From Macrocystis pyrifera (lineage: Eukaryota; Sar; Phaeophyceae; Laminariales; Laminariaceae): a DNA stretch of 64,000 bases. Under the pieces are notes generated by a model. The model saw only the letters and a program-made list of their open reading frames with translations. It searched no databases and was not told the DNA's origin. The DNA is taken from NCBI GenBank assembly GCA_031763025.1, contig JASSKH010000001.1, positions 20,127,142 to 20,191,141 of the forward strand, given 5' to 3'. A program made the translations under genes and the position numbers. Every line of letters begins with the position of its first letter. The first letter of the stretch is position 1. Positions 1-64,000 of this stretch are shown one piece after another.

Positions 1-2922
1 TCTGCTTCTAAAGAGAAATTACTGGAAGGGCGCCCGCCTTGGAAGCTTGGGTGCATTGCCATCACCACCGTCACCGCCAGCAGCAGCAGCACCACCACCA
101 CCACCACCACCACGTTGAACAATCCGTCGTCTTCAAATCATCGATATCATTGATTCACGTGTGAGATACAGCCACCACCACCGAAACCAAAACCATCGCC
201 GCCATTCTCGAAGCTGTTCCGCACTACCACCACCACCATCCCCATGTCCATGGCCCATACCAGAGGTGTTCCGCAGCATCATTATTTCCATAACCACCGC
301 CCCTAACAGAGCTGTTCCGCACCGATGGCACACCGGGTGTTAGCGCCGGCTCGGACACCAAAGTCGCAAAGGTTGAACTTTCCAGTTTTAGGCCGCCATG
401 CTGAACTTTTCAGTCGTCGAGGTAACATGCTATTCGTCCCGGTGAAATGGGCGGTATGATGACATCCAACCACACACACACAACTTTAGCCACGGGATAA
501 ACAACCGTAACGTAGCCATTGTATCGTCAAACTATTATTCATAGGGCAACAATTGGTCGAAACAAGGTGTACTGCTGTACTCGTCACGTTTGTTCGGTGG
601 GACCTACAGTATATAGAACTAGTAATATTAATAGTAAAAGCGGGTGATACTGATGAATCCCAGTGATGAATCCTGCCAATGAAGAGCTTCATGGAAGAGT
701 GGAGTGCTCGTTTTCACATTTTCCGGTGGGACCTATGATTACAGTAGTATCGGCGGCTTTTCCATTTATTGATGAAGCATGTATTAAGAGTGAAGAGTTT
801 CATGGCCGAGTGAAGCCGCTTGGTGTTGAAGAAATTGTCACTCGCAAGGTTCGGTGTCCCAGCAGTACATAACTGGAAGCTCCACCGGCAAAGAAACAGT
901 CAAAAATACTATTGAAACAGTAAAATGTTAAAAGTATTGAAATACTACTAAAATATTGAAATACAGAAGTGAAAAAGAGAGACCACCCACTCGACCCGCC
1001 ACTTCCTGCACGGCATCCCTCTCGTGGTTCTACAGACAGTAGGTTACACCCTAGCTACTAGCCACTAGCCACTAGCCACTAGCCACGCAGATTGCACCAC
1101 CTTCGTTGAACCAAATATTACCACTACTGCTGTCGTAGCCAATCCTACTGATGTACCAAGCAGCCCTACTGTACGCAATCCTGCTGTACGTAGGCAAAAT
1201 CCTTGCGTAGGGAGCAGGTGGTGCGTCGAGGCATCACATATGGTACGTGTCGCAGCGCACTTGCATCGCTGTATCATCCTATTAAACACTAATGGCCGTA
1301 ACAACCCCCCCACTCAACGCTTGCACCTGCTGCAGTACTCAAGAGGTACGTTATGGCAGATGTCCGAAAATTGTTGCAAGAAAATTCGTGATGTCAGTTT
1401 TCGTTGCTACGGCAAAAATCGGGGATGAAAAACCATCCCCGGGTTTTCCAATGTATCCATGACAAACCCACGAAAACTCCAACACATGAATGACGAAAAC
1501 ACAAAAACAGGAGTACACGCCTTTGCCTGCTTATGCGCCATGAGCACGATGGTCAGTGTCACGTATACGAGGTACTGCTTGTACTGAACATATTATATAC
1601 CAGGTAGACTATAGAGTAGGCAGCGTGGTACCGTTGCAGAAAAAAAGTTGGAGCATGTGGAAGTTACAGACCATTAATGATCGATCATTCATTGACATAC
1701 GACGCATTACTCACCGCATATCCTCCGGCTGAGACCAAGGGTTTTCCAACGTTTCATCCAATGATTTTCAACTGTAGGTGGAGGCTTTTCACTATCGGGG
1801 ATAGGGGAAACAATTATGTCACGGCAAAAAATCTTGTTACGCACGGCGGACCTTCGTTACGCGTAAACTCTAAGCAACCCCGTAACGTATTCCCTGCTAC
1901 TAACCGTATCCGATTATAGTAGTAACTGCCGTGTAACCGATACACACCCACAATAGTTGAGTAAAATACGAAGAAGCCGCCAAATAAGAAAGGGAAGCTG
2001 AGATTTACAAGGAACTAAAAAGGTTCGACGCGTTTTTCTTCAAATAGCTTGAATTTAGCGTACTGAACACCTTTCCAGAAAAAAAAAAAAAAACGGGGCC
2101 AACAGCCCTGTTTCTTACTACAGTAGGTGTAACAGCAGGTGTAACAGCAGCTGTAACAGCGGGTGCCCTGTACAGTACTTGGTGTAAAGTATTGCATTCC
2201 GGTGTACCGGGCATGCCAATATATCACATAAAGAGAAGTACTGCTGTTGTCTCTATGTACCACTACAGCTGTAATTCGAAGCCAGAACCTACCTGGTACT
2301 GTACAGTACGTTCCCAATAAACACAAAACAGAAAAACCGAAGCATCTAAGAACGCAAACACCAACGCCCGCCGGTTTTTTAGTGTGTCGGCTTTGACGTT
2401 GCGCCATCGTACCGTAGTATATACCTGGGTATATATATATTATATATTATATATTCATCCATGGATGCACCATTTGACAATAAATATACCACGGTAAGAG
2501 ATAACGAGAAGGAAACTTCTACCTGGCAAAATCGGTTTCGGCTCGGACTGACATATGCCAAGCATGTCCACAAACAAACAAACAAAAAAACAATCTAACA
2601 AAATACTGACGCAGAAATTCTGGAAACTGGAAAATTCCAATTCCAATGGTCGCTTACGCCTATTCTGCGATAATGACAAGAGTGACTATTAATCGACTGA
2701 CAATACCCTACTGGTACTATTAATACTAATACAGCAGTATATTGAACACCTTCGAGAGTGCGACATAAAACGACTACTATTATATACTGTTGTACCACTC
2801 CTTGGCACACATGTCTAACGTATTGATGGCATTCTATTAATAGCACACATAAGGACAGCCATTTTCCACGCTTCGTACATGTCATGATTTACAGTACTAC
2901 AGCAATATACAGTATACAGTAC
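1..2922. other. No recognisable gene; simple repeats
   Basis: I see no convincing coding region. Positions about 61-330 are rich in CAC/CCA trinucleotides, which produce short histidine- and glycine-rich frames on both strands that I treat as by-products. A 9-bp unit (CTAGCCACT) is repeated in tandem near 1053-1085. TACCAGGTA and TACCTGGTA words occur near 1599 and 2290. Confidence 0.6.
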
Positions 2923-2924
2923 TA

Positions 2925-3026
2925 TTACGGGGGTCCATAGTTAATGGGACCAAATTTTGTTTGTAAACTGTAAATATATAGGTTTTTGTGTATACCATAT
3001 GTCCTATTAACTATGGTTCCCCGTAA
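2925..3026 (+). mobile_element. TA-flanked palindromic MITE, copy 1
   Basis: Almost fully palindromic element of about 105 bp. It begins TTACGGGGGTCCATAGTTAA and ends with the inverted sequence CCCCGTAA, and has a TA on each side. No coding capacity. The TA target and short inverted ends fit a Tc1/mariner-type non-autonomous element. The family has about fifteen copies in this window in both orientations. The centre reads ...AAATATATAGGTTTTTGTGT..., which defines the plus orientation used here. Confidence 0.85.
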
Positions 3027-3034
3027 TACTACTA

Positions 3035-3136
3035 TGGGGGTCCATAGTTAACAGGACCTATGGTATACATAAAATCCTATATAGATACCTATTTTTACTG
3101 GCAATAGTTGGTCATATTTACTAGGGACCCCCGCAA
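3035..3136 (-). mobile_element. TA-flanked palindromic MITE, copy 2 (diverged)
   Basis: Second copy of the same family, only about 8 bp downstream of copy 1. Its ends are worn: TGGGGGTCC on the left and CCCCCGCAA on the right. It lies in the opposite orientation to copy 1, so the two form an inverted pair. Confidence 0.75.
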
Positions 3137-3212
3137 TAGAGGAATCATCTATGAAAAGTTCCTCGCCTACCATCGTGAAAGCTTTATTAATATTAATAGC
3201 AGGATCTGCCTA

Positions 3213-3317
3213 TTACGGGGGACCATAGTAAATAGGGCCAAATATTGTTAGTAAAAATAGGTAAATATACAGGTTTTTGTGTGTACCGTAGGTCCTATTT
3301 ACTATGGTCCCCCGTAA
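3213..3317 (+). mobile_element. TA-flanked palindromic MITE, copy 3
   Basis: Third copy within 400 bp. The left end TTACGGGGGACC follows CTA and the right end reads CCCCCGTAA, with the right-hand TA lost. A double TATTAATATTAATA word lies just upstream near 3185. Confidence 0.85.
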
Positions 3318-5264: not shown

Positions 5265-5369
5265 TTACGGGGGTTATAGTTCACAGGACCTATGGCATAC
5301 ATAAAAACCTATATACTTTGCCTGTTTTTACTAACAATATTTGGTCCTGTTTACTATGGTCCCCCGTAA
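5265..5369 (-). mobile_element. TA-flanked palindromic MITE, copy 4
   Basis: Complete copy with TA on both sides (CTA on the left, TATC on the right). The centre reads AAAACCTATATACTTTGCC, the opposite orientation to copy 1. Confidence 0.85.
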
Positions 5370-6755: not shown

Positions 6756-7075
6756 GCCGGCGTCCCCGTTGACTTCCGCGTGCCTGCTAACATCAATCTC
6801 GTGGCTTCGAGACTCACCGAGTGCATACTCGTAGGGACTTTTTTCTCGCATAAAAAATGATTATTAATGGGAGAAAGCGCGAGAGCGTGAGTTATCAACA
6901 ATCGATCAAAACCGTATACCGAATGAATATACTGAATGAACCCTATGCGCTATGAAAGTGAAGGCACATATCGGGGGGGAGGAGGGACGATATATGTCAC
7001 CACGACTTGTCCAAAACATCGCTGAGGGTAAACCTCCTACGAGATAAGCCGGGAAGTAAAAGCCATGAAAAAAAA
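6756..7075 (+). mobile_element. tRNA-derived SINE, diverged copy
   Basis: Starts CGCCGGCGTCCCCG, has a B-box-like CTTCGAGACTC, then the SINE body and a short A-run. It is shorter in the D-arm region than its relatives. At about 6855-6863 it reads GATTATTAATGGG where other copies read GATTAGCGG, a net gain at the TA described in the findings. Confidence 0.8.
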
Positions 7076-12341: not shown

Positions 12342-13237
12342 TTTTCATTTTATTTATTTTTCTTAGTTTCTCGGATTGATAAGCCTTATTGAAGGAGTCG
12401 CGTGGCGTGAGTGGATGTCGAGCCTGCTTTGCTTGCTTCGTATTATCTGACGCCGAAGGGCCGGACATGGTTGACGAACGCTGGACAGAGGCGGCAGACA
12501 GGGTAGCAAGGTACCAGGCGGACCAGCAGGGAGACCCTGGCTGTGCCACTCGTACCATAAACTGCTGCCGCTACCTGGGGGATGCTCTGTGCTTTTGGTT
12601 TGCCTGTTATTTTCCCTTGGTTCTTACTGTAGTCTTACTCTGTTGACTATTAAGAGTGGTGTTTTCTTTTTCCTTTTTTCCAGTTCGTTCTTTTCAAGTG
12701 TCTGCCAGATCCCCTGCGGGGGGGCACGAAGGTTTGTTTCTTAGGCAGTTTCCTATGCGGTTCGATTTCGAGCTTCAGATTTGTATTTTTCGATCCAAAA
12801 AATGAATGACCCTGCTTATGCAGTCCAAATATGCAAAATCCGACCGGAATTTTTTCGATTTGAGAATCCGATGACCCAAGAATCGAACCGCATAGGAAAC
12901 GGCCTTAGATATCTATATTTTTTCTTTTTTCTTTTTTCTATTTCGAATTGTCTTTGTTTTTTTTTCTCTTTGTTTCGATTCGTTTCTCTAGGTCATGGAA
13001 TGTTTATGTCGTGCCTGTCGTACGCAGTATGATGACATGGCATTGCATTGCATACGTGGCAACGTAGTATCTCTGTGGCGTAGCTTTGTGACCGCAGAAG
13101 TAAGTCTTGTATCTCTTCTATTAATATTAATAGGATTGAAGAATCGGCACGGACACGGGTTGTGCTGGATGTCGACGGGTAGAAAGAACGGTTTATAATG
13201 ATGTGAAGAAAACAACAACAACAACAACAACAACATT
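12342..13237 (+). mobile_element. LINE 3' UTR ending in (AAC)n
   Basis: The 3' UTR of the LINE above. A ~22-bp piece (GCAGACAGGGTAGCAAGGTA) at 12177 recurs at 12501, then come conserved blocks: GGTTTGCCTGTTATTTTCCC, a T-rich stretch, CAAGTGTCTGCCAGATC, TTCGAATTGTC, CTAGGTCATGGAATG, GATGACATGGCATTGCATTG, and GTCGACGGGTAGAAAGAACG, ending in an (AAC)n run at about 13212-13236. Related tails lie at 6.6, 37.4, 38.3, 41.0, 45.1 and 56.3-57.0 kb. This copy is interrupted by a MITE at 12744-12904 and carries a double TATTAATATTAATA gain at about 13118. Confidence 0.75.
12744..12904. mobile_element. PIF/Harbinger-like MITE in LINE 3' UTR
   Basis: About 160 bp with long inverted ends: GGCAGTTTCCTATGCGGTTC on the left, and on the right the complement of GGCCGTTTCCTATGCGGTTC. 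TTA stands on both sides (12741-12743 and 12905-12907). The insertion is absent from the corresponding place in the LINE tails at 41.3, 56.6 and 56.9 kb, which run straight from GGTTTGT into the T/A-rich part. A 3-bp TTA duplication and a GGC start fit the PIF/Harbinger superfamily. Confidence 0.75.
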
Positions 13238-18817: not shown

Positions 18818-18849
<32 letters not shown>

Positions 18850-18889
18850 AGGCTTTCCTTCGGAGTGGGTATTCCGTCGTTTCTTGTAC

Positions 18890-19100
18890 AAATACATTTA
18901 GTTTGGTTGGCTTTGGGCTATGACGCCAATTGCAGTTTTGGTTGGCTTTGGGCTTTGACGCCAATTGCAGTTATATTGCAATTGGGGGAATAGCCCAAAG
19001 CCAACCAAACTAAATGTTATGACGCCAATTGCAGTTATATTGCCAGTTATATTGCAATTGGGGCAATACCCAAAGCCAACCAAACTAAATGTATTTGTGT
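18890..19100. repeat. Fold-back end of the 4.1-kb element, copy A
   Basis: Arms of TTTAGTTTGGTTGGCTTTGG and its complement, with inner pieces GACGCCAATTGCAGTTATA repeated in both directions. The whole forms a ~200-bp imperfect palindrome ending with ACAAATACATTTAG / CTAAATGTATTTGT. The same structure is present at 32880-33090. It may be a separate palindromic element captured near one end. Confidence 0.7.
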
Positions 19101-19554
19101 AAAAGAAACGGTGAAGGATGTAATACTAGCGTTTATTTGTGAATGTAACGTGAAACGCAAGATCGGGTGACGCAAGAGTAAGAATGGCATTCGTCTAATA
19201 ATAAGGATAACATATTTCATCAGTGCGGGGGGAGAGAGTGGAGTAGTGCATGGCATGTGGATGATATACAACATACAGGCTGTTGTTTCAAGGAAGGTTC
19301 GGGACAGAGGGGAAAGCAGCAGTGTCGGCAACGACAACGGTTATGGAAATGTTGTATAGTTGCTGGGCGGCCGCGATTTCGATTTAGCCAGCATAGGGGT
19401 TTGGATGAGACATGGTATGTAAATAGTCTTCCAGGCTGCTGTAGTAACGAGGCGGGAGGCCCAGAATGTGGATATGTCCGCTGTTGAACCCGTTGGGTAT
19501 GTGTAGGGAGAAATAGTCGTGATTTTGGGAAATGTGGGAACAATTTGTTGCCTC

Positions 19555-19717
19555 TCATTCGTCCTGGATGGAGACAATCTGCTTGGCGTACTGCTTCGGA
19601 ATTCCGCGAAGCCCTGGAGCAGGCGAAATGGAAGGGAGTCTTCTTGCGCTTGATGATGATGTCTCCGTCTTTGATGGTGGAGTCCGTCAGGCGGCAGTTG
19701 TAGCACTTGCCACCGAC
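19555..19717 (-). CDS. Zinc-finger exon (C-x2-C...H-x2-C), copy A
   Basis: Reads GGKCYNCRLTDSTIKDGDII followed by IKRKKTPFHFAC. The pattern C-x2-C, ~23 residues, H-x2-C matches the spacing class of PARP-type zinc fingers, a tentative family call from motif shape only. Directly after HFAC the frame that looks protein-like changes: LRGIPKQYAKQIVSIQDE then stop is one base out of register, so the exon is frameshifted or differently spliced. Both copies share this, so it predates the duplication. A pyrimidine tract and an AG precede GTCGGTGGC in the sense direction. Confidence 0.5.
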
Positions 19718-19989
19718 CTGGTCGAAGTAAACAGGGTGCGCGGGGCGGGAGTGGCGTGCAGGAAATGGCGGGGGAGGGGGAAGGGGGGGGGGGGGGGGGG
19801 CAGAGTTCAGTATTTGTACTGCTCTACAGCGGCACAACAGCAGTACGTAATCGCTTGCTATACAACGGCAGCAGCAGCAGCAGAAGCAGCAAGTACATGG
19901 GTAAAACGCAGCAGGAAAACGGCCAAAACACTTTTTAACGTACCAAAACGACCATTTGGGTGCAAAAACGACCAAGAAAAACAGTAATC

Positions 19990-20890
19990 CGAATACATAA
20001 GAACAATCAGTGGATATTGAGCCAGCAATAGCACAGTATCAGCAGCAGCAGCAGCAGCAGCCGCAACGGCTTCGAGCAGTGGTTGCGGCAGCATTAGCAA
20101 CATTAGCAGCAGCAGAAGCAGCAATGGATCGCCGCAGCGTTGGCAGCAGTAGCGGCATAGCAAAGATATGATAAAAAAGAAGAAACAAAGTATGTACCCT
20201 GGTATGCCGCGACCGCAAAAACTACGGAATTTCATTGGCGAAACAAAAATATGTACACACAAATGACCAGCATGATGTACAACGCAGCAGCAGCACCACA
20301 GCAGCGTAGCAGCTATATGGAAAGAACGAAGCCCAAAACGAGAAAAAGCAGTACGTACGCAAAATGCAGCAGCAACATGACCAAAATATGTTTTCCAGGT
20401 ACCCAAACGACCATTTAGGTACAAAAACGATCAAGAAAAACAATAATCCGAGTACATGCGAACATCCAGTGGATATTGCGGCAGCATTATTATTGGCATT
20501 AGCAGCAGCAGCAGCAGCAGCAACGGATCGCCGCAACGTTGGCTGCAGCAGCAGCAGCATAACAACGATATGAAAAGGAGGAAGAAAAAAACTACGTACC
20601 CTGGTCGGCCGCAATCGCAAAACGTACGGTAATTATTGACCATACAGAAATATGTACACACACACGAGTGTAATACACACACGAATCACGTCCAGCATGA
20701 TGTACGGCAACAACGCAGCAACACCACAAAAAAAATCGTTGACGATACAGAAATATGTACACACGCACAAGTGCACACAAATCATGTCCAGCATGATGTG
20801 TACGGGAACAACGCAGCAGCGCCACAAAACGACCAAGAAACACAATTATCCGAGTACATACGAACATTCAGTGAATATTGCGGCACCACT

Positions 20891-20930
<40 letters not shown>

Positions 20931-21934
20931 GCAACGGATCGCCACAGCGTTGGCAGCAGCAGCAGCAGCATAGCAACGATATGAATAGAAGGAAGAAAAA
21001 AAGTATGTACCCCGAGTCCGTCCGAAAAGTATTTTTGGTACCTCACTATAGATAGACCCACCCCCGCATTCTGTACGGCAACAACGCAGCAGCAGCAGCA
21101 TAGCAACAATACGAAAAGAACCAAGCTAAAATACGAGAAAAAGTAGTTCGTACGCAAAATGCAGGAGCAAAACGACCAAAATATATTTTTTACGTATAAA
21201 AAAAAACATTTGGGTACAAAAACGGCCAACGAAAACAATGATCCGCGTTGACAGCAGCAACATAGCAACGATATGAAAATAAGGAAGAAGAAAACTATGT
21301 ACCCTGGTATGCCGCGATCGCAAAACCTACGGAAATTCAGTGACGATACAGAAATATGTACACACACAAGTGCAGCATGATGTACAGCAACAACGCAGCA
21401 GCACCACAGCAGCAGCAAGCAGCAGCATAGCAACGATAGGAAAAAAAATCAAGCCAAAAACGAGAAAAAGCAGTACGTACGCAAAATGCAGGAGCAAAAC
21501 GACAAAAATATTTTTCACGTATCAAAAGAACCATTTGGGTACAAAAACGACCAAAAAAAACAATAATCCGAGTACATACGAACATTCAGTGGATATTGCG
21601 GCAGCATTAGCAGCAGAAGCAGCTACAGCATTAGCAGCAGCAGAAGCTGCAATGAATCGCCGCAGCGTTGGCAGCAGCAGCAGCAGCAGCATAGCAACGA
21701 TATGAAAATATGGAAGAAAAAAAGCATGATGTACCCTATTAATAGTATGCCGCCATCGCGAAACCTACGGAATTTTATTGACATTCCGAAAATATGTACA
21801 CTTCCAGCATGACGCACGGCAACAACGCAGCAGCACTACAGCAGCAGCAAGTGCTCAGCAGCAGCAAGTGCACAGCAGCAGCAAGTGCACAGGAGCAGCA
21901 GGTGCACAGCAGCAGCACTCATGGCGTGGCGCTG

Positions 21935-21967
<33 letters not shown>

Positions 21968-21985
21968 GAAACGAGCAAAGGGGGT
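19990..21985 (-). repeat. CAG/CTG-rich satellite-like array, copy A
   Basis: About five to six diverged units of roughly 300-460 bp. Each carries a CAG/CTG tract, CGGATCGCCGCAGCGTTGGC-like text, GTACATACGAACATTCAGTG, a run near ACCATTTGGGTACAAAAACG, and ACCCTGGTATGCCGCGATCG. It sits between the two zinc-finger exons, so it is either one long intron or an amplified insertion. Long Ser-, Ala-, Cys- and Leu-rich frames through it are by-products of the triplet runs. Confidence 0.7.
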
Positions 21986-22320
21986 ACGTAGGGTCACCAA
22001 AACATGTACACATAGAAATCGTGCGCACCGAAAATGCACCACAGTAGCAGCAGCACTCACATCGTTCGGTGCAGCGGTGACGGCGACAGCTGAATCCTCC
22101 GTTCCTTCGTTCACGTCCCGCAAACAGTTGTGCATGTGCGCGTTCGCGTGCACTGTGTAAGAGGAGCCGACGCAACGCACGAAGGGGAAAGAACGAGCAT
22201 GGATGAGTCCAAAAAATAATAAACGCTTTGAGGTAGCTTTGTATGCAAAAAGGCAATTGAAAACCCCCCAAAAACGTACTGGCAACAGACAGCATTCAAC
22301 AATAGACCCAAGACACTCAC

Positions 22321-22585
22321 CACTGTCAGCAGTCTCGAGGGAGTACGAGACAGTCCCTTCCTTGATCGGGCGAGCACATAACTCGCAGTTGGTTGCCCAA
22401 TACAGGATGATCCCGCCACCATCGCACATGAGATCCTCGCAGGTGGCGAAGGCCACGTTTTTGCCACCAGGCGCGGAGTTCTTGGGCAAGTAAGTAAGTG
22501 CTGGTCCGTGCACCGGTCGCAAACAACAGTCGGCACCAGGTCGGTCTTTGTCGTTGCCGCTCTCTTGCCAGAGGGCGAGGACCAC
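22321..22585 (-). CDS. Zinc-finger exon with Cys pairs, copy A
   Basis: Sense reading includes GGKNVAFATCEDLMCDGGG, then IILYWATNCELCARPIKEGT and VSYSLETADSG. It then meets AGTG|GTGAGT, an excellent splice donor at 22321. CELC plus PIKEGTVSYS resembles the first half of the finger in the other exon (CYNC...STIKDGDIII), so a domain repeat is likely. The upstream limit is uncertain because two frames are open. Its partner in copy B is at 29340-29604. Confidence 0.45.
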
Positions 22586-23129
22586 GCGCCTCTCGACGAG
22601 GGGGAGGTGAGCTTAGGGGGCGTGGAGAAGGGAGAGGCGGGGGTTGCAGCACCAGCAGATTCGCCACCGACAGCAGCAAGCAGCTTGGCCGCCTACAGCT
22701 GCATCTAGATGCCGTTCGTCGAAGGCGAGACGCCTCTTCTAGGCGTTGTGCGAAGAGCTGTCTATTAGTTGCAGTTTGCGAAGAAGAAAGAAGAAAGGTT
22801 GTTTGGCTGTTTGGCTGTTCGGCTGTTTCAAAGAAGAAGGGCTGTTTGCGAAGAGCTGTCTATCAGTCGATCTGTCTGCCAAGAGCTAGCAAGTGACAAC
22901 GACCTCAAAAATCGTAATTATAGTTGTATCTATATATATAGTGTAATCCGTACCTCTGGTACTAATAGTCGTTAATGACAGCAGAACAGCAGACAGCATC
23001 ACAGATCAACCCGCCCGATTGCCGATACCCATTCTCTTTACACCATACCGGCACGGAGGAACACCCTCGTTCCCACTTGACGCAGCACACGAGACACAAG
23101 CAATAACTTTGCCAACTGGTAGGCTCAAA

Positions 23130-24040
23130 GGGGAGAACAGTTTCGTATCGAATCGATTTCAAATCGTTTTTTTTAATGAATCGACGTCAAGGTTCATCTG
23201 ATTGGTAAAAAAAAGAATCACCAAGAAGACATTTGTTATTTGTGGCGAGGCGAGGGCAAGTCGATCCCCTTTGGATTGAACAAGTCCCAAAAGACTTCTT
23301 GCAAAATCGATTCGAATCGATCAGAAATGTAAGGATATCATCCAACTTGCATGACATGTTCGCACTGGGCCAACGCCCCCTATACCAAGTAATCCATCGC
23401 TGTTGAGGAAATTCCGATGGCCACCACCCAGGCAATAAATCGTGAACCTCAACGAGTGGCGACCGGGGCAACAGCCGAGCCCACGGCTACAGACCATAGC
23501 ACCACGTACTCCGGCGGTAGCTCTTGAACAAAACATCATGGCTTCCGTCCGCCCAGTTCTTCCACCAGGTAGATCGGCCAAGCGCTACGAGAAGCAAGCG
23601 ATCGACCCTAAACACGGAGGAAAAACTTAGGACTTGACCATAGCTGCATCGCCGCCGCTGTCCCGCGCGTGGCGTTCAAGGGCTTCCTGCACCCACCCAG
23701 GAGAACCTTAGAGTGGTAGGTAGCTTCCTGGGGTGCGCCGCAGAAAAAAACTGAGGCTGGCGGCGGCGCTCACGCGACGATGCACATCGTCGCTCTCATC
23801 TGCTCTCCTCGGTGCTTGTCGGCCGGATGTTGTGCTAGATGTTGCGTTATTCCAATCTCATACATTTCCTAGAAGGATATGCTGGGATACGTGGTTTCCT
23901 GATAGAAACCAAAGCACGTTTTTTCCCACCAAATCAGTATCCTGCGATTTGAAATCACCAAATCGATTTGAAATCGATTCCAACAGAAAAAAAGTCGATT
24001 CGAAATCGATTCGATTCAAAAGCGTCCTTCGTTAAAAGGG
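23130..24040. mobile_element. Possible hAT-like element with AATCGATTT words
   Basis: Both arms repeat self-complementary words: AATCGATTTCAAATCG and CGATTCGAATCGAT near 23150-23320, and AAATCGATTTGAAATCGATT near 23945-24025. The middle (about 23340-23900) has open frames but no recognised domain. I could not define terminal inverted repeats or a target duplication, so the class is inferred from the word pattern. Confidence 0.35.
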
Positions 24041-24091
24041 GCACTAACGGTCTACACTACAGTAGACTATATCAACAGACAGCCGATATAG

Positions 24092-25284
24092 GAGGCCTGT
24101 GGGTCGGCATGACTTATATTCGCCGACTAGCCATTAGTCGGACTAAAGGTCAGTCGTGAAACGGAGGTGTCCATCCTCCAACTTGTCGAGTTTACTTGAT
24201 TTGTAAAGAGGGCGTTTTTAAGGCGGAATGCAGCTTTTCAACGTGAATCGCTGTGGGCTGCGGATGCCTTCATGCCCTGTGACAGTGCAGCGCGCGGCGG
24301 GCAAATTCTATCAGCACCCAACCACGCAGTCACCGTTGCTGTAGTCGTCACTTTCTACCGTCGATGTGTCCCTCCTCTCGAGGGTTAGAGTTAGGGTGAG
24401 GGTGAATAAACGAACAACATCACCGAGGGATCTACGCCCTGGTGGTATATTTCGTACCAGGTAGTGGTTAACGTCGGATATTGCTGCTGCTGTACTAGCT
24501 TTGGTGTCAGGGGTTCGATTCTGCTCCTGTATGGAGTATGGAGTATGGAGTTTTACCTCTCAAAAATGACACCAACTACTGCTGTCGAGAGCGCCCATTG
24601 TAGCGTAGGTAGATACAATCGATCTGACGCTAGCCGACAAGGGAAGAAAGTGCTGAACCCTTCTCGCGATAAAAGTGCTACTGAAGGCAAGCCACGAGCC
24701 GAAGTGGGGATGGGGGAGAGGGGCGTACTACAGCAGTAAGTGGGCTAGGATCTGACTCACGAGTGGGAGGGAGCAGGAGCATGGAGGGCTGAGAAAGTTA
24801 TGGGGATGGAAAAAAAGTTTTTTCAGTGGATAGTGTGCAATAAAGTATGCACCGGTGCCGTTCAATTGTTGTCAACACTGGATATACGCAGCTTGGTCAT
24901 GAGTTCGCTGCTTCGCTCGTATCTCCGTCAGGTCATGTTGCGATTCAACCGATAGCCGTCACGGTCCTCTAATCCGGGGTAGAGAATTAATTTTTTCGTA
25001 CTTCTCGTTTCGGTACTGTTCTTGCGTAAACTGATTCCGTCTTTTGTGTTGGAAGTTCCGTGAAGCTAGGCCATGTTCATCACTTATAGCGCTAGTCTTG
25101 TGTAAAATGAGAAGCCAATTAGTGCAATTTTGGCCTCCAGTAAAGAAACACAACCCCTCGGACAAGTTTTTTTTTTGCTCGCCTGACTTAGCCGCCTAGC
25201 CGCCAAGTACCGACTAAACTCAGCTAGTCGGATTTGCAGACTAGCGTCTAGTTATCAGTCGTGAAATGCCAACTCACAGGCCTA
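24092..25284. mobile_element. hAT-like element
   Basis: Left end AGGCCTGTGGGTCGGCATGA and right end CACGACTGA...TGCCAACTCACAGGCCTA are inverted and related to the hAT at 15381-16419. Subterminal words GACTAGCC, TTAGTCGGACT and CAGTCGTGAAA recur at both ends. The flanking 8-mers (CGATATAG and CAATTGAG) match at 5 of 8 positions, so the duplication is doubtful. No transposase is seen inside. Confidence 0.55.
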
Positions 25285-25661
25285 CAATTGAGTCCCCCTA
25301 TAGTCCCTTTGTAGTCCCTTTATAGTCCCCTTAGTCTCTCTATTAATAGTCCTTACTACTGTACAGCTGTAGCTTAAGTCAACACTCGCAACCAAGCCGC
25401 AGCAGATACACTACAACAACACAGTTATTTATAGTCACAGTCCCCCGGTACGAAACAGTAGTGACCATTGACATTAACATTAAAATTACCCTGGAAAGCG
25501 TTACACAATCACCACAGCAGCAACCAGGGAAAAACTTGACCGTTGAACAACATAACATCTGCATCGCCAAAGGATGGTCATACGCCATAATACAGCTACT
25601 GTATTATTTCTTATACTACAGCAGTAGATGCTACAAGTGCACTTTACAGAAGCCCGTTTTG

Positions 25662-38941: not shown

Positions 38942-39132
38942 CAGGGATGTTCCCAGGCCGGTCCGGTCGGGTCGGGTCGGGTCGAGTGACGGTATCCGGA
39001 CCCGATCCGTGATGAGTTGAAGACTTTATGACTCGACCCGACCCGACAGAACCCAACCCGATCCGCGAGATTTCGAAAAGTTCCTGACCCGACCCGCGGG
39101 CTGGGGTAATAAATGACCCGTGAAGAGCCCTG
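38942..39132. mobile_element. Short hAT with GACCCG words
   Basis: A 191-bp element, left end CAGGGATGTTCCCAGGCC and right end GAAGAGCCCTG, filled with GGTCGGGTCGGGTCG and CGACCCGACCCG words. Flanks ATAAAAAA and AAAAAAAT are compatible with, but do not prove, an 8-bp duplication. Short hATs with this word are known from other eukaryotes. Confidence 0.65.
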
Positions 39133-39139
39133 AAAAAAA

Positions 39140-40545
39140 TCGATTTCATGTGTTCTCAGCAGAAGCTATTTACCATTTCTCGTATATATTTTCTAGCGGG
39201 AGGAAACATGCCTTGCGGAAAACGGAACACCTCCCGAACCGAACCTCCGTTGTTGGTTGCAGTCGATTTATTACTATTAACAGGAAGGAAGCTTACATTC
39301 ACGGCAATATTGACTACTGTCAAATCACTTCGATGTATTTTTCAACCCGAAAGACGCGTCCGAAACGCATGCCATGAATATCACTCCGTCATCCGTTGGT
39401 CAACTTGAAAAAACGTACGAGTTCTCGAGCCACCGATGTCGTTCAACATTGAGCTTCGGCGACAATGCTGTTAATAATTAATAATCACTGATATTCCCAC
39501 CGACTCAAGCCTCAAACGGAGCCCCGCGTTCCGTAATTCACGAGCGCTGCAGCTGAGTATACTGTAGTTGTAAGGATTAACGACTGTAGAATAACCAAAT
39601 ACCGGAATAGGTTGACGGGATTCAAACACAACGAGGCGAACTACGTAATGGTCTACTGCTGGTACCAAACACCAGTGCCGTCAACGTATGCCGTTTTCCG
39701 TAAGGCGTGCTTCATAGGCCACTATCAATGTAACCGGAAATACTACCAGGTACATATTAATAGCTGCTGCGGAAAAGACAAACCTTACGAGATAAATCAT
39801 GAAAACACCTTGGGGCATAATCTGGCCGGCGCGGTCCCTCAAGTGTTACCAGGTGTATACGGTACTGCTGTATGTTTGTATAACGGTACATACCAGGTAA
39901 TCGTCCGCATCGCATGACCACACGACCGAGGGCGGAGGTCAGCTTCCTACGACTAGGAGTTGCACACTTGGGATGGCACCGGCGCAAGGAAGGGACATCG
40001 ATGTAAGGGAACGAGGCGGAAAAATACCTGCGTCGTCACACTCTCAATGCAACTATCACCACCGACATCGGCTTCTAGAACCACTACATGGCGCCGATTT
40101 CAGCGCCATGTGCTTCTCACGCACCACACAGCATGCATATGGGGGCGGGCGGTGCCGCATCCAGCTGCAACCTCAAACCCATGGTTGTGGTCGCCGCCTT
40201 GGGATGGGTTCGTCCTGGCACTCATTCTCAACGATTACGTCCGCTTTCTGGCTTCCTCTCAAAGAGTACTCAACAGAGCGTAACTCCTGCCACACAAGCC
40301 CGCTCGGGCACGCGAACCGCGCGATCGGTGCTATCGTATCTGGCCTGTCGAGCGTACCGGCTTCTCGAAAAAAACCCTGTACACATCCTGTACAACGGAG
40401 GCTGGGGAGGGCCAACACCCCTGTCCGGACAATTCGATTCTGGACGATGATCAAAACTTTCCACACGTAAACGTAGTCCACTAAAAACGCAAAAATGTAA
40501 TAGCAGGCGCAACTACGGACGTTCGTCACTAATCACACTCCTAGT
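39140..40545. other. Unassigned sequence, possible exons
   Basis: Around 39960-40500 several frames on both strands are open for 80-160 codons in GC-rich sequence. None shows a recognised domain, and splice signals do not choose between them. TACCAGGTA words lie near 39748 and 39893. Confidence 0.35.
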
Positions 40546-40984: not shown

Positions 40985-41465
40985 GTTATTGTTGTTGTCT
41001 TCACATTAAACTGTTATTTCTACCCGTCGACATTCAGCAGCACAACCAGAGTCCGTGAGGATTCTTCAATCCTAGAGAGATACAAGTTCTGTGGTCACAA
41101 AGCTACGTCACAGAGATACTACGTTGCCACGTATGCAATGCAATGCCATGTCATCATACTGCGTACGACAGGTACGACATACACATTCCATGACCTAGAG
41201 AAACGAAACGAAACAAAGAGAAAAACAAAAACAAAAACAAAGAAGACAATTCGAAAGAGAAAAAGGAACAAGAAAAAAAAAACAAAAAATATACCCTGGT
41301 ATATAATATATATATAAAGACAAACCATCGTGCCCCCCCCTGCAGGCGATCTGGCAGACACTTGAAAAGAATGAACTGGAAAAAAAAAAAAAAGGAAAAA
41401 GAAAAAAACACCACTATTAATAGTCGTCGTCAACAGAGTAAGACTACAGTAAGAACCAAAGGGAA
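40985..41465 (-). mobile_element. LINE 3' UTR, nearly complete
   Basis: Minus-strand copy from the (AAC)-like 3' end at 40985 to TTCTTACTGTAGTCTTACTC near 41445. It keeps the CTAG site at 41072 unaltered (GATTCTTCAATCCTAGAGAG) but has CTATTAATAG at 41412 where the copy at 56.74 kb has CTAG. It lacks the Harbinger-like insert seen at 12744. It abuts the exon at 41537-41704 on its 5' side, in the same strand. Confidence 0.8.
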
Positions 41466-45084: not shown

Positions 45085-45236
45085 TATATCACAGTCTGTG
45101 ACCACAGAATCAGTATCTTTCTAGGATAAGAAATCAGGACGGACATTGGGCGTACTGATCAGGCTGGGTAGAAAGGACGATTTAATGTGACGACAGCAAA
45201 CAACAACAACAACAAACAACAACAACAACAACAAGT
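45085..45236 (+). mobile_element. LINE 3' UTR fragment inside a hAT
   Basis: GTCTGTGACCACAGAATCAG, ATCTTTCTAGGATAAG and GGGTAGAAAGGACGATTTAA, ending in an (AAC)n run at about 45197-45233. The CTAG site is unaltered. A younger insertion within the hAT. Confidence 0.7.
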
Positions 45237-52066: not shown

Positions 52067-52449
52067 TGCCTTCTCTACAGAAACATAAACATATACCATA
52101 CCGAAATACCTGGCACCTGGTAGAAGGAGTTAATACATATACGCGCGGACCGTTGGGGGGTCCTGGATGTTCCGGCACTGAAAAACAAAGACAGCTGACT
52201 TGAACTACAGTATTAATATTAATAGTATAACTCACAAAATCTACAACGTAGTTGACTACCGGTATTAATCCTGCGCACTTCAACCTCGAAGCATACGATA
52301 CGCTCTGGTACTACCCTGGTGGTGTGGTGACGAAATATGAGCAACTGGACAGCAGCACGATGGTACAAGCTCTCCGTGCTCTTGCTGCATGCAGGCTCGA
52401 CCTCCATTGCTGCTGTGCTCGCTGCTGTGCTCGATTCGCGGCACATTTT

Positions 52450-52883
52450 TATCAACTTTACTTTCCAGCATAACTCGTAGGAGGTTTTACCCTCAGCGGC
52501 CTTCTTCTGGACAAAGCCGTCGTCACGGGTGTCGTCCCTTCTCCCCCCCGGTACGTGCCTTCATTTGTATCGCGCATAGGGTTCAGCTTTCCCACTGCTA
52601 TTGATAGCCGATTTTCATCCAATGTTGCTGATTCACGCTCTCGCGCTTTCCGCTATTACGGGGGACCATAGTAAATAGGACCAAATATTGTTAGTAAAAA
52701 TAGGCAAAATATGTAGGTTTGTATGTACACTATAGGTCCAATTAAGTATGGACCCCCGTAATAATCAATCAATTGTTCATAAAGTCCGTACTCGTACGAG
52801 TACGCACTCGGTGAGACTCGAACCCACCAAGTTGATGTTAAATAGGCACGCGGACCACCTACCAAGCTACCGGGGACGCCGGC
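52450..52883 (-). mobile_element. tRNA-derived SINE split by a MITE
   Basis: Body 52450-52653 and head 52764-52883 on the minus strand are interrupted by MITE copy 12. Other SINE copies read CTTTCCGC-TA-ATCAATT (complement) across this point, so the empty site is known and the duplicated target is exactly TA. Near 52595 it reads CTGC-TATTGATA-GCCGATTTTC where the other copies read CTGCTCGTCGATTTTC, a 6-bp gain. Confidence 0.85.
52656..52761 (+). mobile_element. TA-flanked palindromic MITE, copy 12, inside SINE
   Basis: TTACGGGGGACCATAGTAAA ... GACCCCCGTAA, 106 bp. TA on both sides, and the SINE sequence resumes on each side. This is the cleanest proof of the family's TA target duplication. 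Confidence 0.9.
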
Positions 52884-53749: not shown

Positions 53750-55610
53750 TGTGTAACTCCTTTCGAGCTTGGCTGAATATACTGTACGGTAGATTCAGAC
53801 TCCTTCGGAGCTGGCTGAATATCATGTTAATAGTATCAGCCCGGTTTCCGCCGGACACATTTTGGCGACGAGGTAACATAAGCAACTGGCTTGTCGTCCA
53901 CCATCTCCTGCTGCTATTAATATAGTTCCTATTAATAGTGACAGCTTTTCTTTGGTGAATGCTGGGTGAGGGGGGGGAAGGGGGGATCTGCGTACCTGGT
54001 AAATCTTGGGTAAAATAGCAAATGAATGGCATTCCGGCAAGCGATTTCTCGAGGTGCCTCGGCTGGGCATGTGGGGTTACGAGTTTGTTCTCGGCATGCA
54101 TGGTCACTGGTACCATCGATATGGTACTATCGTACTATCGATACCTGTGAAGTAGGAACATGGACGTACGTACAGCAGCACCTCACGTAAATGGTACCTG
54201 GTATGTACGAGTAAACGGTCCTCCACTTTGTGCCAGAGGGCGGCAGGTTGCAGTTTTTTCACGGTACATGCTCTCATCTGCACAGCTGCAGCTTTCAATA
54301 GTTATAGTTAATAGTGCTTGTGTACTTGTGTATGTGCATGACATTGTGTGCATGTCGGTTCGGGATTGTTACCAAAAGCTGAAAGATGCATACTATCAAT
54401 ATTACAGTAATACAAGAGGGTCATCGATGGTGGCGGCAAGGATTTGTGTGTGCTATTATTAATAATACGATACATATCTGCACATACATGGAGTCGGCGG
54501 CGCGGCGGGGGGGGGGGGGGGGGGGTGCAGCGGCTCTGGAGGTGCCTTCGTTTTCCAGTCCAGCAGTATTAATAGCTGTCATTGTTTTTTTTGTCCGGAC
54601 GAGAGAACGCAATGTCGAACTCTGCCGTGTGCTGTACATGAGCAGTGAGGGGGGTACAAGGTATATTACCGGAATCTCGCCGACCGAGAGATTGTGTATA
54701 CGAGGTGCCTGCTGCTCGTATTAATTATGAATAGTATGCTAATGGTTGTGTCTGGACTATACCAGGTACCTGCTAGTACGTACATGCATGAGTTTGTTTG
54801 TCTGTCTGCTGTTGTACAGCCTCGAAAAAACACCAAACTACAAACTACACAATCAATCTGGCGACCTTCAGCAGCCACGTACACCACCACGCCCGCATCG
54901 CCATGCGTGTGCTCCGCGTTGGATGCATTGGCCGCCAACTGCCGAAGGGAGCACGGTAGGTAGTCATATGCATCCACCCATTAACCCTCTTTGGCAAGTG
55001 CGACAGATGTGCAGTAGCAGCAGCAGTAGCAGCAGTTGGCAGTGGCCGTTGCCTCGATAATCATGGGACCCCGGCTCTGCTGGTGCGGTTACCCAGTGAA
55101 AGTACACAACAAGTATTAATAGTACAGCTGTTCAACTACCTACACAACCATGAAGGACATCGTGACATCACACCAGTCGCGCCCAGGCTGTGGACGGGCA
55201 AAGACACCTTCTCACCTGTTCACACACTGACGTTCCGTCCTGGCACCACTTGAATGCGATAGAGGTGGTCTGGCGAAGTAGTCACAGAAACCAACACACC
55301 CATCATGGTACGAAAAAGGCAAGTCTCCCCGACGATCTATTGGACCGAAAGTTGCTACCGCTTCCATATCAGCTGAAACCTTTTTCTTGGACTGCGGGGC
55401 AGCGCGGGCACTTCGAACAACTCAGCAACTCCCGGTAGACTGGTGGAGATTAACACGCAAAGCTCTACTCCTTCGGTGGGTCCATGGGTCGAGTTTCCAG
55501 CAAATTAGCTTCTGCACAGCGCTCCAAGGCGCATCAGGATGAGAACAGCACAGAGTATGTAAGAGTCGTCGATTTCCACTCTTGCGTTCTGTCTACGATA
55601 TCCCTAAACA
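53750..55610. other. Unassigned sequence rich in TA-N-TA words
   Basis: No supported gene. Contains TATTAATA near 53917, 53934, 54459, 54570 and 55114, several TACCTGGTA/TACCAGGTA words, a G-run at 54508-54525 and short CAG runs near 55015. Confidence 0.4.
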
Positions 55611-55615: not shown

Positions 55616-55720
55616 TTACGGGGGTCCATAGTTAACGGGACCAAATTTTGTTAGTAAAAATACGTAAATATATAGGTTTTTATCTATACCATACGTCCTG
55701 TTAACTATGGACCCCCGTAA
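55616..55720 (+). mobile_element. TA-flanked palindromic MITE, copy 13
   Basis: Clean copy, TTACGGGGGTCCATAGTTAA ... GGACCCCCGTAA, with TA on both sides and C before the left TA. Confidence 0.9.
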
Positions 55721-58309: not shown

Positions 58310-59153
58310 TTATTTCGGCTGAGATTTCCGCGGTCTCGCACCACCCGGGTTTGTGTGAGTGCCGGGTTGGGGGGGTATTTCTTTCGCTACTACATCAAGA
58401 ATAGCATCGGCAAAGGATTCAGCCATCTCAGAGATAATGTTCGCGAGAGAAGGAAAGGGAGCTTGGAAGGGATCCGCGCCACTACTCGCTGCCTGCAGTC
58501 TCCGTCGAATCGAAACTTCTGCCGGTCGAAGGCCTAATTTTCGTTCGTACGTGTCTGCTCGGTGCGAAACGATCGCTGAGGCGGACCATCGCACATACGA
58601 TTTTATGGTCTAAGTCCGCCTTCGCTGGGGCCGGAGACTGGGGCTGGACCTTGACATCATCCACGCGAGATCGGTGTGCTCGGCAGGTTAGGATGTAGTC
58701 AATCCGTTTTTGGTCGTTGCAGCTGCAGATGCCGTTGAACGTATGAGATGTTCCACCCCTGCGAGCGCTAAAAAAAGTCTTCGTGAGAGCGAGCTTATTG
58801 TCTGGAGCGAATGCCAGCAGGCGTTTGCCCGTACTGCTGAGCTCATACGCTCCAAGCACCGTACCGTCACCACACCCTTCCATCCTCCTTCCAGCCCGTG
58901 CGTTTGCGTCTACCAGCACGAACAGGCATTCCTTCGTTGGAATGTGTTCCACCATGTGCCCCAATCTCTTCCCAAATTCCTCTTTCATCTGTGTGTTGAG
59001 ATTGGCTTCCGTTGGGGCATAGGCTACAACTAGGTTGACCGCAACGCTTTCACCAGTCAACTCGAAGCTCATAGACATGAGGCGTTCTGCAATTAACTGG
59101 TGGTTCTGGTGGTTATAAACAAACTTACGGCATAACGTTTCCTTCATTGCCAA
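58310..59153 (-). CDS. LINE endonuclease domain, C-terminally cut
   Basis: About 223 codons of an AP-endonuclease-like domain: VNLVVAYAPTEANLNTQMKE, IPTKECLFVLVDANARAGRR, SSTGKRLLAFAPDNKLALTK, TFFSARRGGTSHTFNGICSC, KRIDYILTCRAHRS, KADLDHKIVCAMVRL. Conserved features seen are V-x-A-Y-A-P, D-A-N-A-R, R-x-D-Y-I and D-H near the end. A further stretch to 58310 (LANIISEMAESFADAILD) matches the spacer in the copy at 35.3-36.3 kb. The reverse transcriptase core that should follow is absent: the sequence goes to its C-terminal block within about 100 bp, an internal deletion of roughly 1.5 kb or more. Confidence 0.8.
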
Positions 59154-59199
59154 ACGAACTCCGTATAGTCCTTGCCTGCCATCCGTTCCTTCTTGCCCA

Positions 59200-60245
59200 G
59201 AGCAGAAAAACCAAATATCCGGCTGCAGCAGGAGGCACCTGCTGCCTGCATCACGAGAGAAAGCTACTACTGTAGATCAGGTCGTGTTCATGCCTTGATT
59301 GAAGTTGTCCCGATCTGCATGCCCCGCAGGCGGAGCGAAAGCAAAACAGACAGGAGAGGCTCAAGAACTCGGAGGCAAAATGGAAAGCGGCGCAAGAGAA
59401 GAAGCAGTCTTCGCCCGTCCGCAAGGGTGGGAAGCGATGACTCCACCAGTCACACGAGACCACGAAACCACGATTGACTACTGCGCAGTTATATAGCAGC
59501 CGCCTCTTCCTTGTGGACCGCCGTGATGGCTGCAGTAACTTTTGATCATGTGGTGGTCACGAGGTGGCGAGCAATCGGGTTGGGTTATAGGGCGAGCAGC
59601 CCTGGTTGTCGGTGTAGTGGAGTGTTACGCTCACGGTACCGAAGACAGAAATAGCGTCTTACAATACTGCAAGACTGCAGCACTACAAATGTAGCCTAGC
59701 GAACCATCGTGGTCCGGCTTATCCTCTACGAGGCGCAAACCACGGTAAATATGGTGGAGGTCAGTCTTCCACTTTGTACATGATAAACTAACTAGAGGAC
59801 TCTACTGGAGGTCTACTGATGATTTTGTCGTGAAGTCTGGCTCCTGTTTTTTTGTATTCGTAGTATGTTGAGTGGTAGGTTATAAGGGAGGTTTGTGCAG
59901 GCAACACGGTGTGTGCAGGCTGTACGACCGAGTTCAACGTTGAGCACGCTCTTCAGGCTGTCTCTGCTGTGTCTACTGTACCATACTTGCTACCGTTTAA
60001 AAGTATTAATATATTCAGTGTATTCCTATGTGTCCACCTTGAAGTGGTACTTGCTCATCCACTATGGGCGATGAATACTAAGGAAACACCATTCGAATCT
60101 ACTGTACGTACTGTTAAATGGGTGTCTTTGTCGGAATCAACCTGAAGTCATGCTGATGCTTTTTTGCGCGAACTGATGCTCATGGCCAGTTTTGTTATAC
60201 GGGGCCGAGGATATCTCCCCAGCTCTCCTGCAGGCTGAAGCGGCC
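59200..60245. other. Unassigned sequence
   Basis: No supported gene. The LINE's 5' limit is not evident. One TATTAATA word near 60004. Confidence 0.4.
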
Positions 60246-62273: not shown

Positions 62274-62818
62274 CAGTGATGTGCTTAACCCGGCGTGAAC
62301 CATGTAACCTACCGGTTATTACCGCAAATCAGGATTTGATGTAACCTACCGGTAAATAACCGCGCTGGCCGGGGACGAAAACGTTCCATCCCCGGGGTGG
62401 TAAACAACGTATGATGTTGGAAATATTGTTGTTTGAAAGCAGCTTGCTGTATGTAGGCTCTTCTGATGCTGTACACTTTACCAGCATCTTCGTTTGCGCT
62501 ACTGCTGGTGTGACAACCGTGACCAGCGCAAGAAGGGCTGCACGGCCCTCGAGGCCCTCGGGTTCAACAGAGAGTGCTGGCCCCAGAGACCCCCAAGAGG
62601 AAGAGGAAGATGCTGAAGAAGCCATGTGTTGTGTCTGCTGTGTGTGTGGAGTCCTCGGTGTGTGTGTGATGTTGTGTGTGTTGTGAAGGGGGCTCGAGGG
62701 GGGGTGGTCCCCCAGTGAGGGGCCCCCTGGAACTGAAAAAATAACCGGGAATTTCCATGTAACCTACCGCGGAAAGTTGTAACCGGTGATAACCGATGCC
62801 GGGTAATGCGCATCACTG
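62274..62818. mobile_element. Short hAT with TAACCTACCGGTTA words
   Basis: A 545-bp element, CAGTGATGTGCTTAACCCGG on the left and CCGGGTAATGCGCATCACTG on the right. TGTAACCTACCGGTTATTAC and GTAACCTACCGCGGAAAG words lie near the ends. The 8-bp flanks (GTAATTCT and GCATAAAC) do not match, so the duplication is worn or the ends come from different copies. The middle (62450-62700) is GT-rich with no recognised protein. Confidence 0.7.
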
Positions 62819-62819
62819 G

Positions 62820-63475
62820 CATAAACCGTAGTATAAATCGTTGCGATCTGCACGTAATAAAAAAACAAACAGAAAGGAATGGTTGGCTGATTGCTGCGGT
62901 ATCAGGGGGTTGGCATCTGGGATCGACGACCGCTTACTGACCCAGCTGCGCCGGGGGAAGCGTGCGAGAAACTGCCGAGCGAGCGGTCGACGCTCTAGAT
63001 CGGGCAGACAACAGGTCCCTTACTTTGCAATCGAATCTACCAGCTACGGTCGGAGCGAGATCCGACTGCTGTGCAGAACGTATACACGCGGCTGCTGTAT
63101 GTTCGCCAGATGGGATCTGGATGATCTGCGCATACTTGTACATGTTGGCGAGGTGGGGTCTACTCTACACATGTACGACCCTGGTACGTGTTATTAATGA
63201 TATGTATACCAATATGTATAATATTCTAAATTCGGGGAGACGAATTGGATATATAAATATATTTAATTCGGGGAGACGAAATAGCATATAGCATGCTATA
63301 AATTATGAGCCTGTCAACTGCGTTACAAATTGTGAAGCAGCACCACACATACATGAGCACGGCATTAATAGCAGCATTGCATGGGATGATAGGCCGGGTC
63401 GAAATCTGAATTTTCGTCGGGACTAGATAACACCAACAACAAAAAATAACCGACAACAATCCGGATATCAATGTA
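62820..63475. other. Unassigned sequence
   Basis: No supported gene. TTCGGGGAGACGAA is repeated at about 63234 and 63270 within A/T-rich sequence. Confidence 0.4.
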
Positions 63476-63478
63476 TGC

Positions 63479-63905
63479 GAACTCGCTCATACGACACCTA
63501 TTGACAGCCAGGAGGGGTCCGTCGAAACAACGTGACATCACAAACAAATCACCGACCACACACTAAAAAAAAAAAACGCTGAAGGCAAGCGCGAACTCGC
63601 TCATACCACCACCATCCAACCATGAAAAATGGGACCCTTGGGAACGGTACGCCAAGACTTTCGTTGACGCTGCGTTACAGTCCGTAAACCGCCTGCAAAT
63701 TTAGGCACAACTTGAGACATGCCTCGTCAACCCATAAGAAACAGTCGGTGAACTCGCTCATACGACAGTCCAACTAAAAAAAAAAAAAGCAGCTCACCGG
63801 AGAACAGCACGTCAATGACAATCTGCCTCTTATTGGCGCTGCACTAGTCTGTAAACTACGCCCAAAATTATAAAATTATGATCGTCTCAAAAATGTTACG
63901 GGTAC
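63479..63905. repeat. Diverged tandem repeat, ~115-160 bp units
   Basis: Units start with AACTCGCTCATAC near 63479, 63592 and 63750. Units 2 and 3 also share GACGCTGCGTTACAGTCCGT / GGCGCTGCACTAGTCTGT and GTAAACYRC-like text. Two units hold a 12-13-base A-run. Confidence 0.65.
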
Positions 63906-64000
63906 GCAAACCCACTAGGCTATCATAAGCAAAAAGTGCTCGTACTGTACTACCACCATGTCTTGCTTACCAGATGTACAGGTGCTACTGCTGTGTTTAT

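Follow-up and report, generated by a model that had tools for sequence, protein, structure and literature searches.

TATTAATA as a probable excision footprint of a short TTAC-ended element in Macrocystis pyrifera

The 8-bp word TATTAATA, which reads TA-TTAA-TA, is strongly over-represented in the assembly of the brown alga Macrocystis pyrifera. From sequence comparison we propose, with a probability of about 0.86, that it marks where a TTAC-ended miniature inverted-repeat transposable element (MITE), a non-autonomous element of the cut-and-paste type, has excised. The analysis started from one stretch of 64,000 nucleotides (hereafter the window), which lies at 20.13–20.19 Mb of the 26.5-Mb scaffold C189. 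Genome-wide counts refer to the assembly of 537,376,219 bases in 223 contigs, with the reversed word as control both for TATTAATA and for the 19-bp element end. Other counts come from a 275-kb sample that comprises the window, twenty 10-kb stretches of C189 (19 of them spaced 1 Mb apart) and four small loci chosen for containing the word. Paralogues labelled L008, L012, L014, L017, L019 and L026 are copies beyond the window coordinates.

Abundance of the word

The window holds 39 copies of TATTAATA, against a mean of 1.10 (sd 1.05, maximum 5) in 100 dinucleotide shuffles and against 0.5 and 2.6 expected from order-2 and order-3 Markov models. A preliminary description of the window had counted 35–40 copies by hand and is borne out. 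A maximal-order Markov model expects 36.5 and hides the excess because its 7-mers derive from the same TATTAATA copies. The sample contains 86 copies (2.1 expected at order 2, 7.8 at order 3), and the whole assembly contains 94,130 (7,522 for the reversed control). Density is ∼175 per Mb in the genome and ∼609 per Mb in the window, which is thus ∼3.5 times richer; the twenty C189 stretches hold 43 copies (∼215 per Mb). The one-mismatch neighbours of the word are also in excess as a group (210 versus 69.7 expected), as scar decay would give, in a count that does not separate out AT-rich words in general. Thirty of the 39 window copies have C on the left or G on the right, which agrees with the three quarters given in the preliminary description; its statement that the word is mostly framed as CTATTAATAG was too strong, as the full CTATTAATAG is present in nine of 39.

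A resident element with matching ends

The sole abundant TA-flanked inverted-repeat family found in the sample is a resident element of ∼105 bp with ends TTACGGGGG...CCCCCGTAA. It starts with TTACGGGGG[AT]CCATAG and ends with the reverse complement, so that it begins TTAC and ends GTAA, and its terminal inverted repeats start directly at TA, as in Tc1/mariner elements. The sample holds 94 loci of this MITE, 52 of them at least 95 bp long, with a median pairwise divergence of 16.8%. In the window, TTACGGGG has 20 matches, 18 of which extend into the MITE. The exact 19-bp end occurs 40,310 times genome-wide and its reversed control not once; the number of elements that retain an exact end on one or both sides should therefore be roughly 20,000–40,000. 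The weakest element-like end, at L014:6119, keeps ∼15 bp of the MITE.

A dispersed repeat with six window copies carries filled, empty and one-mismatch scar states at the same TA. Copy 52446 is filled and reads TTTCCGCTA-[element]-TAATCAA. Two copies are empty: 53420 reads TTTCCGCTA-ATCA and 42230 reads TTTCGGCTA-AATCA (sites at ∼53,203 and ∼42,015). The duplication is therefore TA, as it is in Tc1/mariner elements (CGCTA-ATCA when empty, CGCTA-[element]-TAATCA when filled). Copy 7090 reads TTTCTCCCATTAATAATCA at this TA and carries CATTAATA, one change from TATTAATA (∼6,858–6,870). The last two copies have GCTT at the site (18830) or diverge after the TA (3735).

Element and word also share a target flank. 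Outside the TA, element ends prefer T, A and C at positions -3, -2 and -1 (0.58, 0.74 and 0.61; 69 ends, including those of the contigs L002 and L003, which derive from metagenome-assembled genomes, MAGs). TATTAATA ends show the same letters at 0.56, 0.55 and 0.49 (180 ends), a preference that ends of a second over-represented word, TACCWGGTA, lack. In the kelp sample AC precedes TA at 27 of 59 element ends and 43 of 172 scar ends, compared with 2,234 of 32,727 for all TAs and 5 of 163 TACCWGGTA ends. The scar preference persists when 19 of the 86 sites are dropped (nested, at most 16 bp from another scar, or at most 20 bp from an element end): AC then flanks 18 of 67 sites on the left and 21 of 67 on the right, against a background of 1,022 of 16,366 (Fisher p ∼1e-7 and 5e-10). 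Gains are seen at CTAG, where the preliminary description expected them; TAC-TA-GTA describes the preferred target more closely than CTAG alone.

Several observations concern the element outside the window. A search with the word of the terminal inverted repeat returned three matches in genome contigs and none in viral contigs. Kelp-type MITE DNA lies near one end of the MAG contigs L001, L002 and L003 (JALZVB010000211.1, JALZVY010000069.1 and JALZWD010000061.1), which carry the bacterial GTDB names Saprospiraceae, Phycisphaera and Flavimaricola and whose deeper DNA looks bacterial by eye; these are probably chimeric contigs from an alga-associated sample. The DNA beyond the element-like end at L014:6119 resembles, by eye only, a Copia reverse transcriptase.

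Gains at TA in a second repeat family

We aligned 11 copies of a second repeat family of ∼500 bp, excluding the other L017 copy and a weak match at 45097–45208. Six copies are empty at site A (CCTA-GAGAG): 41000, 56330, L026 and L014, as well as L012 and L008, the last two with altered letters downstream. In copy 12600 the site holds TATTAATATTAATA, a gain of 12 bp with one more base nearby; 6600 has TAGTAATA there and 38312 has TATTCATG. L019 is altered, and the region is missing from 56766. At site C (CCACTA-GTC), 56330 is empty, 41000 and L026 read TATTAATA, and 12600 reads TCTTAATA. The adjoining GTC triplet is present one to three times, and copy 56766 differs there (GCAGTAGAA); because the triplet number varies, raw length differences at site C are not exactly 6. 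At site D (GACTA-AGAAC) the empty copies are 56330 and L026; 41000 and 12600 have TACAGTA there, which is a clean gain of 5 bp. Only L012 has TACCTGGTA at site B (GATA-CAAG), and it differs by 3 bp immediately upstream. L026 also shows a gain of TACGAGTA with one letter altered. At least three, perhaps four, different words have therefore been inserted at TA within this one family.

The preliminary description had reported 6-bp gains at TA in several repeat families. In our comparison a gain of 6 bp at 41415 (beside the variable GTC) and one of 12 bp at 13119 (plus one base) bear this out; at 21737 a gain of 6 bp lies opposite TG rather than TA.

Nested scars

Three TAs lie in TATTAATA, one central and two terminal. 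An element that re-inserted at either terminal TA and excised again would turn the word into TATTAATATTAATA; use of the central TA would give TATTATTAATAATA. Both forms are abundant genome-wide, with 2,982 copies of TATTAATATTAATA (control 15) and 1,213 of TATTATTAATAATA (control 53). The three nested doubles that had been noticed near 3185, 13118 and 52212 are present, with exact starts at 3185, 13119 and 52211, and the window holds a fourth nested form, TATTATTAATAATA, at 54454. A MITE that lies in the central TA of a TATTAATA copy (26570–26674) looks like a caught intermediate of the central form.

Independence of nested loci was judged from their flanks. A first set of 20 loci of each form, 18 of each 20 from small unplaced contigs, fell into 8 flank groups (central) and 14 (terminal). 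On large scaffolds, 22 central loci (C125–C127) form 21 groups and 12 terminal loci (C125) form 12; two loci of each form overlap the first set. Nested-scar loci from unplaced contigs of 64–172 kb (among C3–C95) are often near-identical (86–100%), unlike those of C125–C127, and these small contigs may represent a portion of the assembly that is rich in repeats or of different derivation.

Proposed mechanism

We propose that the MITE would insert at TA, preferably within TAC-TA-GTA, and duplicate the TA. On excision a transposase would cut a few bases inside the element ends. One flank would then retain TA plus the first element bases and the other the last element bases plus TA, and their joining would give TA-TTAA-TA, a net gain of 6 bp. 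Two routes could yield TTAA. The overhang may be TTA, 3 nt long, and pair through its final TA with the final TA of the overhang from the other side; alternatively, 2-nt overhangs (TT and AA) may be filled in and then joined. The three TAs of the scar would then offer sites for new insertions and excisions, leading to TATTAATATTAATA or TATTATTAATAATA. We infer where the cuts fall, how the ends anneal, that a transposase acts and that most of the 94,130 copies arose in this way. Directly visible are the words, the element, the TA duplication, the shared target flank, the empty, filled and one-mismatch scar states, and the nested forms.

Thirteen distinct inserts can be built if each end of the MITE contributes up to four bases. 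TTAA stands far above the others in excess (86 versus 2.1 or 7.8); the counts are 68 versus 32 or 51 for TTA/TAA and 268 versus ∼119 for bare TA. By sequence comparison, the word appears to have the form of a Tc1/mariner excision footprint, TA plus a few terminal bases plus TA. The preliminary description had read it as the scar of a once very active TA[TT...AA]TA element, and the abundant TTAC...GTAA element, the flank it shares with the word, the filled, empty and one-mismatch scar states at one TA, and the nested forms support that reading.

Points that weigh against the proposal

A number of observations count against this interpretation. Filled, empty and scar states could be compared at the same site in one repeat family, whose scar departs from the word by one letter. 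Small indels adjoin both of the best gains (the GTC triplet at 41415, one base at 13119), and the 6-bp gain at 21737 faces paralogues that read TG (TGG), not TA. Window paralogues span the scar at four of 36 scar places (overlapping pairs counted once), so most sites lack a local empty allele for comparison. Indel scans fitted TA-w-TA gains (w being any inserted word) at 13 of 167 and 41 of 561 gap sites, with one TATTAATA each, a result too dependent on gap placement for scar counting. A joined-flank test found an empty match for three of 18 TTAA sites with spanning paralogues, none of them clean, and this rate does not exceed that of four-letter inserts in general (53 of 414), where 25 of the 53 empties are CTAC or ATAG words; the same test gave a good empty at L012:4818 (CCTGG) and another at 12625 (CTG).

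The flank and nested-form measures have limits of their own. The TA-w-TA words CTAC, CTGC, GAACC and ACAA equal or exceed the scar on the AC flank, so this measure is not unique to the TATTAATA scar; we suspect trinucleotide repeats as the source of CTAC and CTGC, and the interior of the element as that of ACAA. Repeat copies inflate the nested counts that come from small unplaced contigs. The terminal to central ratio is 2.46 to 1, where equal use of the three TAs would give 2, and we set it aside as a 2 to 1 test, since by their flanks many of the small-contig loci are copies of one repeat. A single dominant footprint is itself unusual beside the mixed footprints of plant elements and the non-canonical ones of Hsmar2. 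A profile search of the genome for DDE_3 (PF13358) gave no match, with three candidates scored, and so tied no transposase to the MITE. The systematic tests are weak, and the case for an excision footprint stands on the flank match, the nested forms and the alignments checked by hand.

Alternative explanations

The scars may have come from a different TA-target element with TT...AA ends, such as an autonomous partner or an extinct family, rather than from the TTACGGGGG MITE. Any such element would leave the same word, CCWGG scars are present though no resident family stands out for them in the sample, and neither an autonomous element in the 275-kb sample nor a DDE_3 match was found. However, the shared target flank and the shared insertion site point to the TTACGGGGG family or to the same transposase, and we regard a separate source as improbable, at about the level of an outside chance.

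Replication slippage, or tandem growth of a 6-bp unit, would turn TATTAATA into TATTAATATTAATA and may add to that form, whose count is more than twice that of the central form; yet it can yield neither the step from TA to TATTAATA nor TATTATTAATAATA (22 loci in 21 flank groups on C125–C127), and as a general explanation it is very unlikely. Least probable of all is a selected binding site whose excess reflects regulation: the word is palindromic with preferred C/G flanks, and CTATTAATAG, as we take it, fits the MEF2-type MADS-box consensus, but other TA(A/T)4TA words lack the flank preference (AC at 24 of 580 ends), the word is found in dispersed repeats as a gain at TA, and neither ∼94,000 copies nor nested forms would be expected.

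Other words at TA

The MITE footprint proposed here may have counterparts. TACCWGGTA occurs 82 times in the sample (2.2–2.7 expected), an order-3 excess stronger than that of TATTAATA; its forms TACCAGGTA/TACCTGGTA have 25 sites in the window, and 7-bp gains at TA are seen at L012:4818 and inside a MITE copy on a MAG-derived contig (L003:2762). TACWGTA occurs 126 times in the sample (53.5–55.1 expected), with a clean 5-bp gain at TA, and has 48 window sites (e.g. 12625 and 41445). Window counts are likewise raised for TATCATA/TATGATA (TATSATA; 24 versus 7.9–9.4) and for TACGAGTA/TACTCGTA (14 versus 3.5–4.5). TA-CCWGG-TA and TA-CWG-TA look like scars of other families, and TA-CGAG-TA is perhaps another. 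No resident family with CCWGG or CWG ends stood out in the sample; an inverted-repeat search for CCWGG gave one 80-bp pair (L013:8307, CCTGGT ends).

Excision of DNA transposons has mostly been studied locus by locus. We lean slightly towards the view that the brown-algal genome is a readable archive of cut-and-paste transposition, in which each TA-target family leaves one uniform word (TTAA, CCWGG, CWG, perhaps CGAG) that can be counted even for families without a living copy, and in which the scar is homogeneous because the overhang anneals with itself. If so, a single 8-bp word would mark tens of thousands of past excisions in a genome that still carries the element and also shows scars used more than once. 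Sequence alone could then reveal how insertion balances loss, which targets are preferred and how ends are joined, and extinct families could be recognised by their scars. Transposon scars may also account for many short indels at TA in kelp, which bears on marker design and on the interpretation of small indels in genes.

Features of the window

Table 1. Positions in the 64,000-nucleotide window of TATTAATA copies, putative single and nested scars, and full-length TTAC-ended MITEs
Feature	Position	Strand	Remark
TATTAATA, copies 1–20 (starts)	626, 2718, 2835, 3185, 3191, 3967, 4829, 5553, 6275, 7712, 7725, 9224, 9802, 10292, 13119, 13125, 16070, 16370, 21737, 25341		
TATTAATA, copies 21–39 (starts)	26754, 33174, 33496, 33589, 39755, 41415, 42437, 44634, 46152, 48330, 52211, 52217, 53915, 53930, 54457, 54567, 55114, 60004, 62191		
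Span of the 39 TATTAATA copies read as excision scars	626–62198	.	
Putative single scar, site C	41415–41422		Empty paralogue CCACTAGTC at ~56,750; L026 also scarred; GTC triplet downstream varies
TACTGTA, putative second scar type	12625–12631		5-bp gain at TA; same-site paralogue TACAGTA at 41445; empty at ~56,760 and in L026
Putative nested scar TATTAATATTAATA	3185–3198	.	Terminal TA re-used
Putative nested scar TATTAATATTAATA	13119–13132	.	Plain CTAG in paralogues 56330, 41000, L014 and L026
Putative nested scar TATTAATATTAATA	52211–52224	.	
Putative nested scar TATTATTAATAATA	54454–54467	.	Form predicted for central-TA re-insertion
Full TTAC-ended MITE	2925–3026	.	TA on both sides
Full TTAC-ended MITE	3213–3317	.	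CCTA as left flank
Full TTAC-ended MITE	5265–5369	.	TA on both sides
TTAC-ended MITE within central TA of TATTAATA	26570–26674	.	GCTAT-TA-[element]-TA-ATACC
Full TTAC-ended MITE at TA in dispersed repeat	52656–52761	.	Paralogue comparison
Full TTAC-ended MITE	55616–55720	.	TA on both sides; ends identical over first 14 bp

Scans of the window gave no Rfam match and no tRNA, and none of 10 open reading frames (ORFs) matched Pfam; the tested part showed no ordinary gene content. An ORF of the long interspersed nuclear element (LINE) endonuclease type lies at 58485–59276 on the minus strand, with 52 database relatives, one of them named (Ectocarpus). A large inverted repeat (18842–22936 and 28993–33124) has arms of ∼4.1 kb, 93.9% identical overall and rich in CAG/CTG repeats, and a 6-kb centre that holds a 675-bp AGT array (27788–28462). 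Units of 40 bp of the ACCGAACCGCACCGTAGG type are arrayed in two blocks 2 kb apart, at 34817–35055 and 36974–37343.

Comparison with known systems

The kelp element behaves, as far as its sequence indicates, like a Tc1/mariner-type element, the class suggested in the preliminary description, and we leave its superfamily membership open. Among the open-licence papers listed, none was found that describes TATTAATA as a scar or brown-algal MITE footprints, which is no proof of absence. The transposon piggyBac duplicates TTAA and excises seamlessly, leaving no scar; it shares with the kelp word only the letters TTAA, and we rejected it as a model, as the duplication here is TA and TTAA is the added remnant. 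Sleeping Beauty and Tc1 leave the canonical footprint TAC(A/T)GTA. This too has the form TA-w-TA, and TACWGTA is also in excess in kelp, but it has a 3-bp insert with a central mismatch where TATTAATA has the 4-bp palindrome TTAA.

Stowaway elements end in CTCCCTCC, whereas the kelp element ends in TTACGGGGG, and it was not assigned to the Stowaway MITEs. Two papers describe Stowaway/mariner footprints as mixed, with TA plus 1–4 bp of the ends kept (PMC1925063), and as retaining TA plus terminal bases (PMC4561436). Stowaway and plant mariner-like elements (Osmar5, 14T32) resemble the kelp system in the TA duplication, the short non-autonomous element and the footprint of TA plus terminal bases; they differ in their mixed 1–4 bp footprints, compared with one dominant product in kelp, where the DDE_3 search identified no transposase. 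Footprints of Hsmar2 are described as non-canonical (PMC3770610). Tourist/PIF-Harbinger MITEs, as characterised in PMC4561436, make a 3-bp duplication and generally excise precisely, and were set aside for the kelp element, which has a 2-bp TA duplication and a putative scar.

A parallel in uniformity is ISY100, an IS630/Tc1/mariner element of Synechocystis. As reported in PMC2170065, ISY100 vector ends that were cleaved and then rejoined with ligase gave TATATA. There, as proposed here, cleaved flanks rejoin to one uniform product, and on our reading the ISY100 overhang pairs with itself. ISY100 differs in being bacterial, in having a known transposase and in giving TA-TA-TA, where the kelp genome has TA-TTAA-TA.

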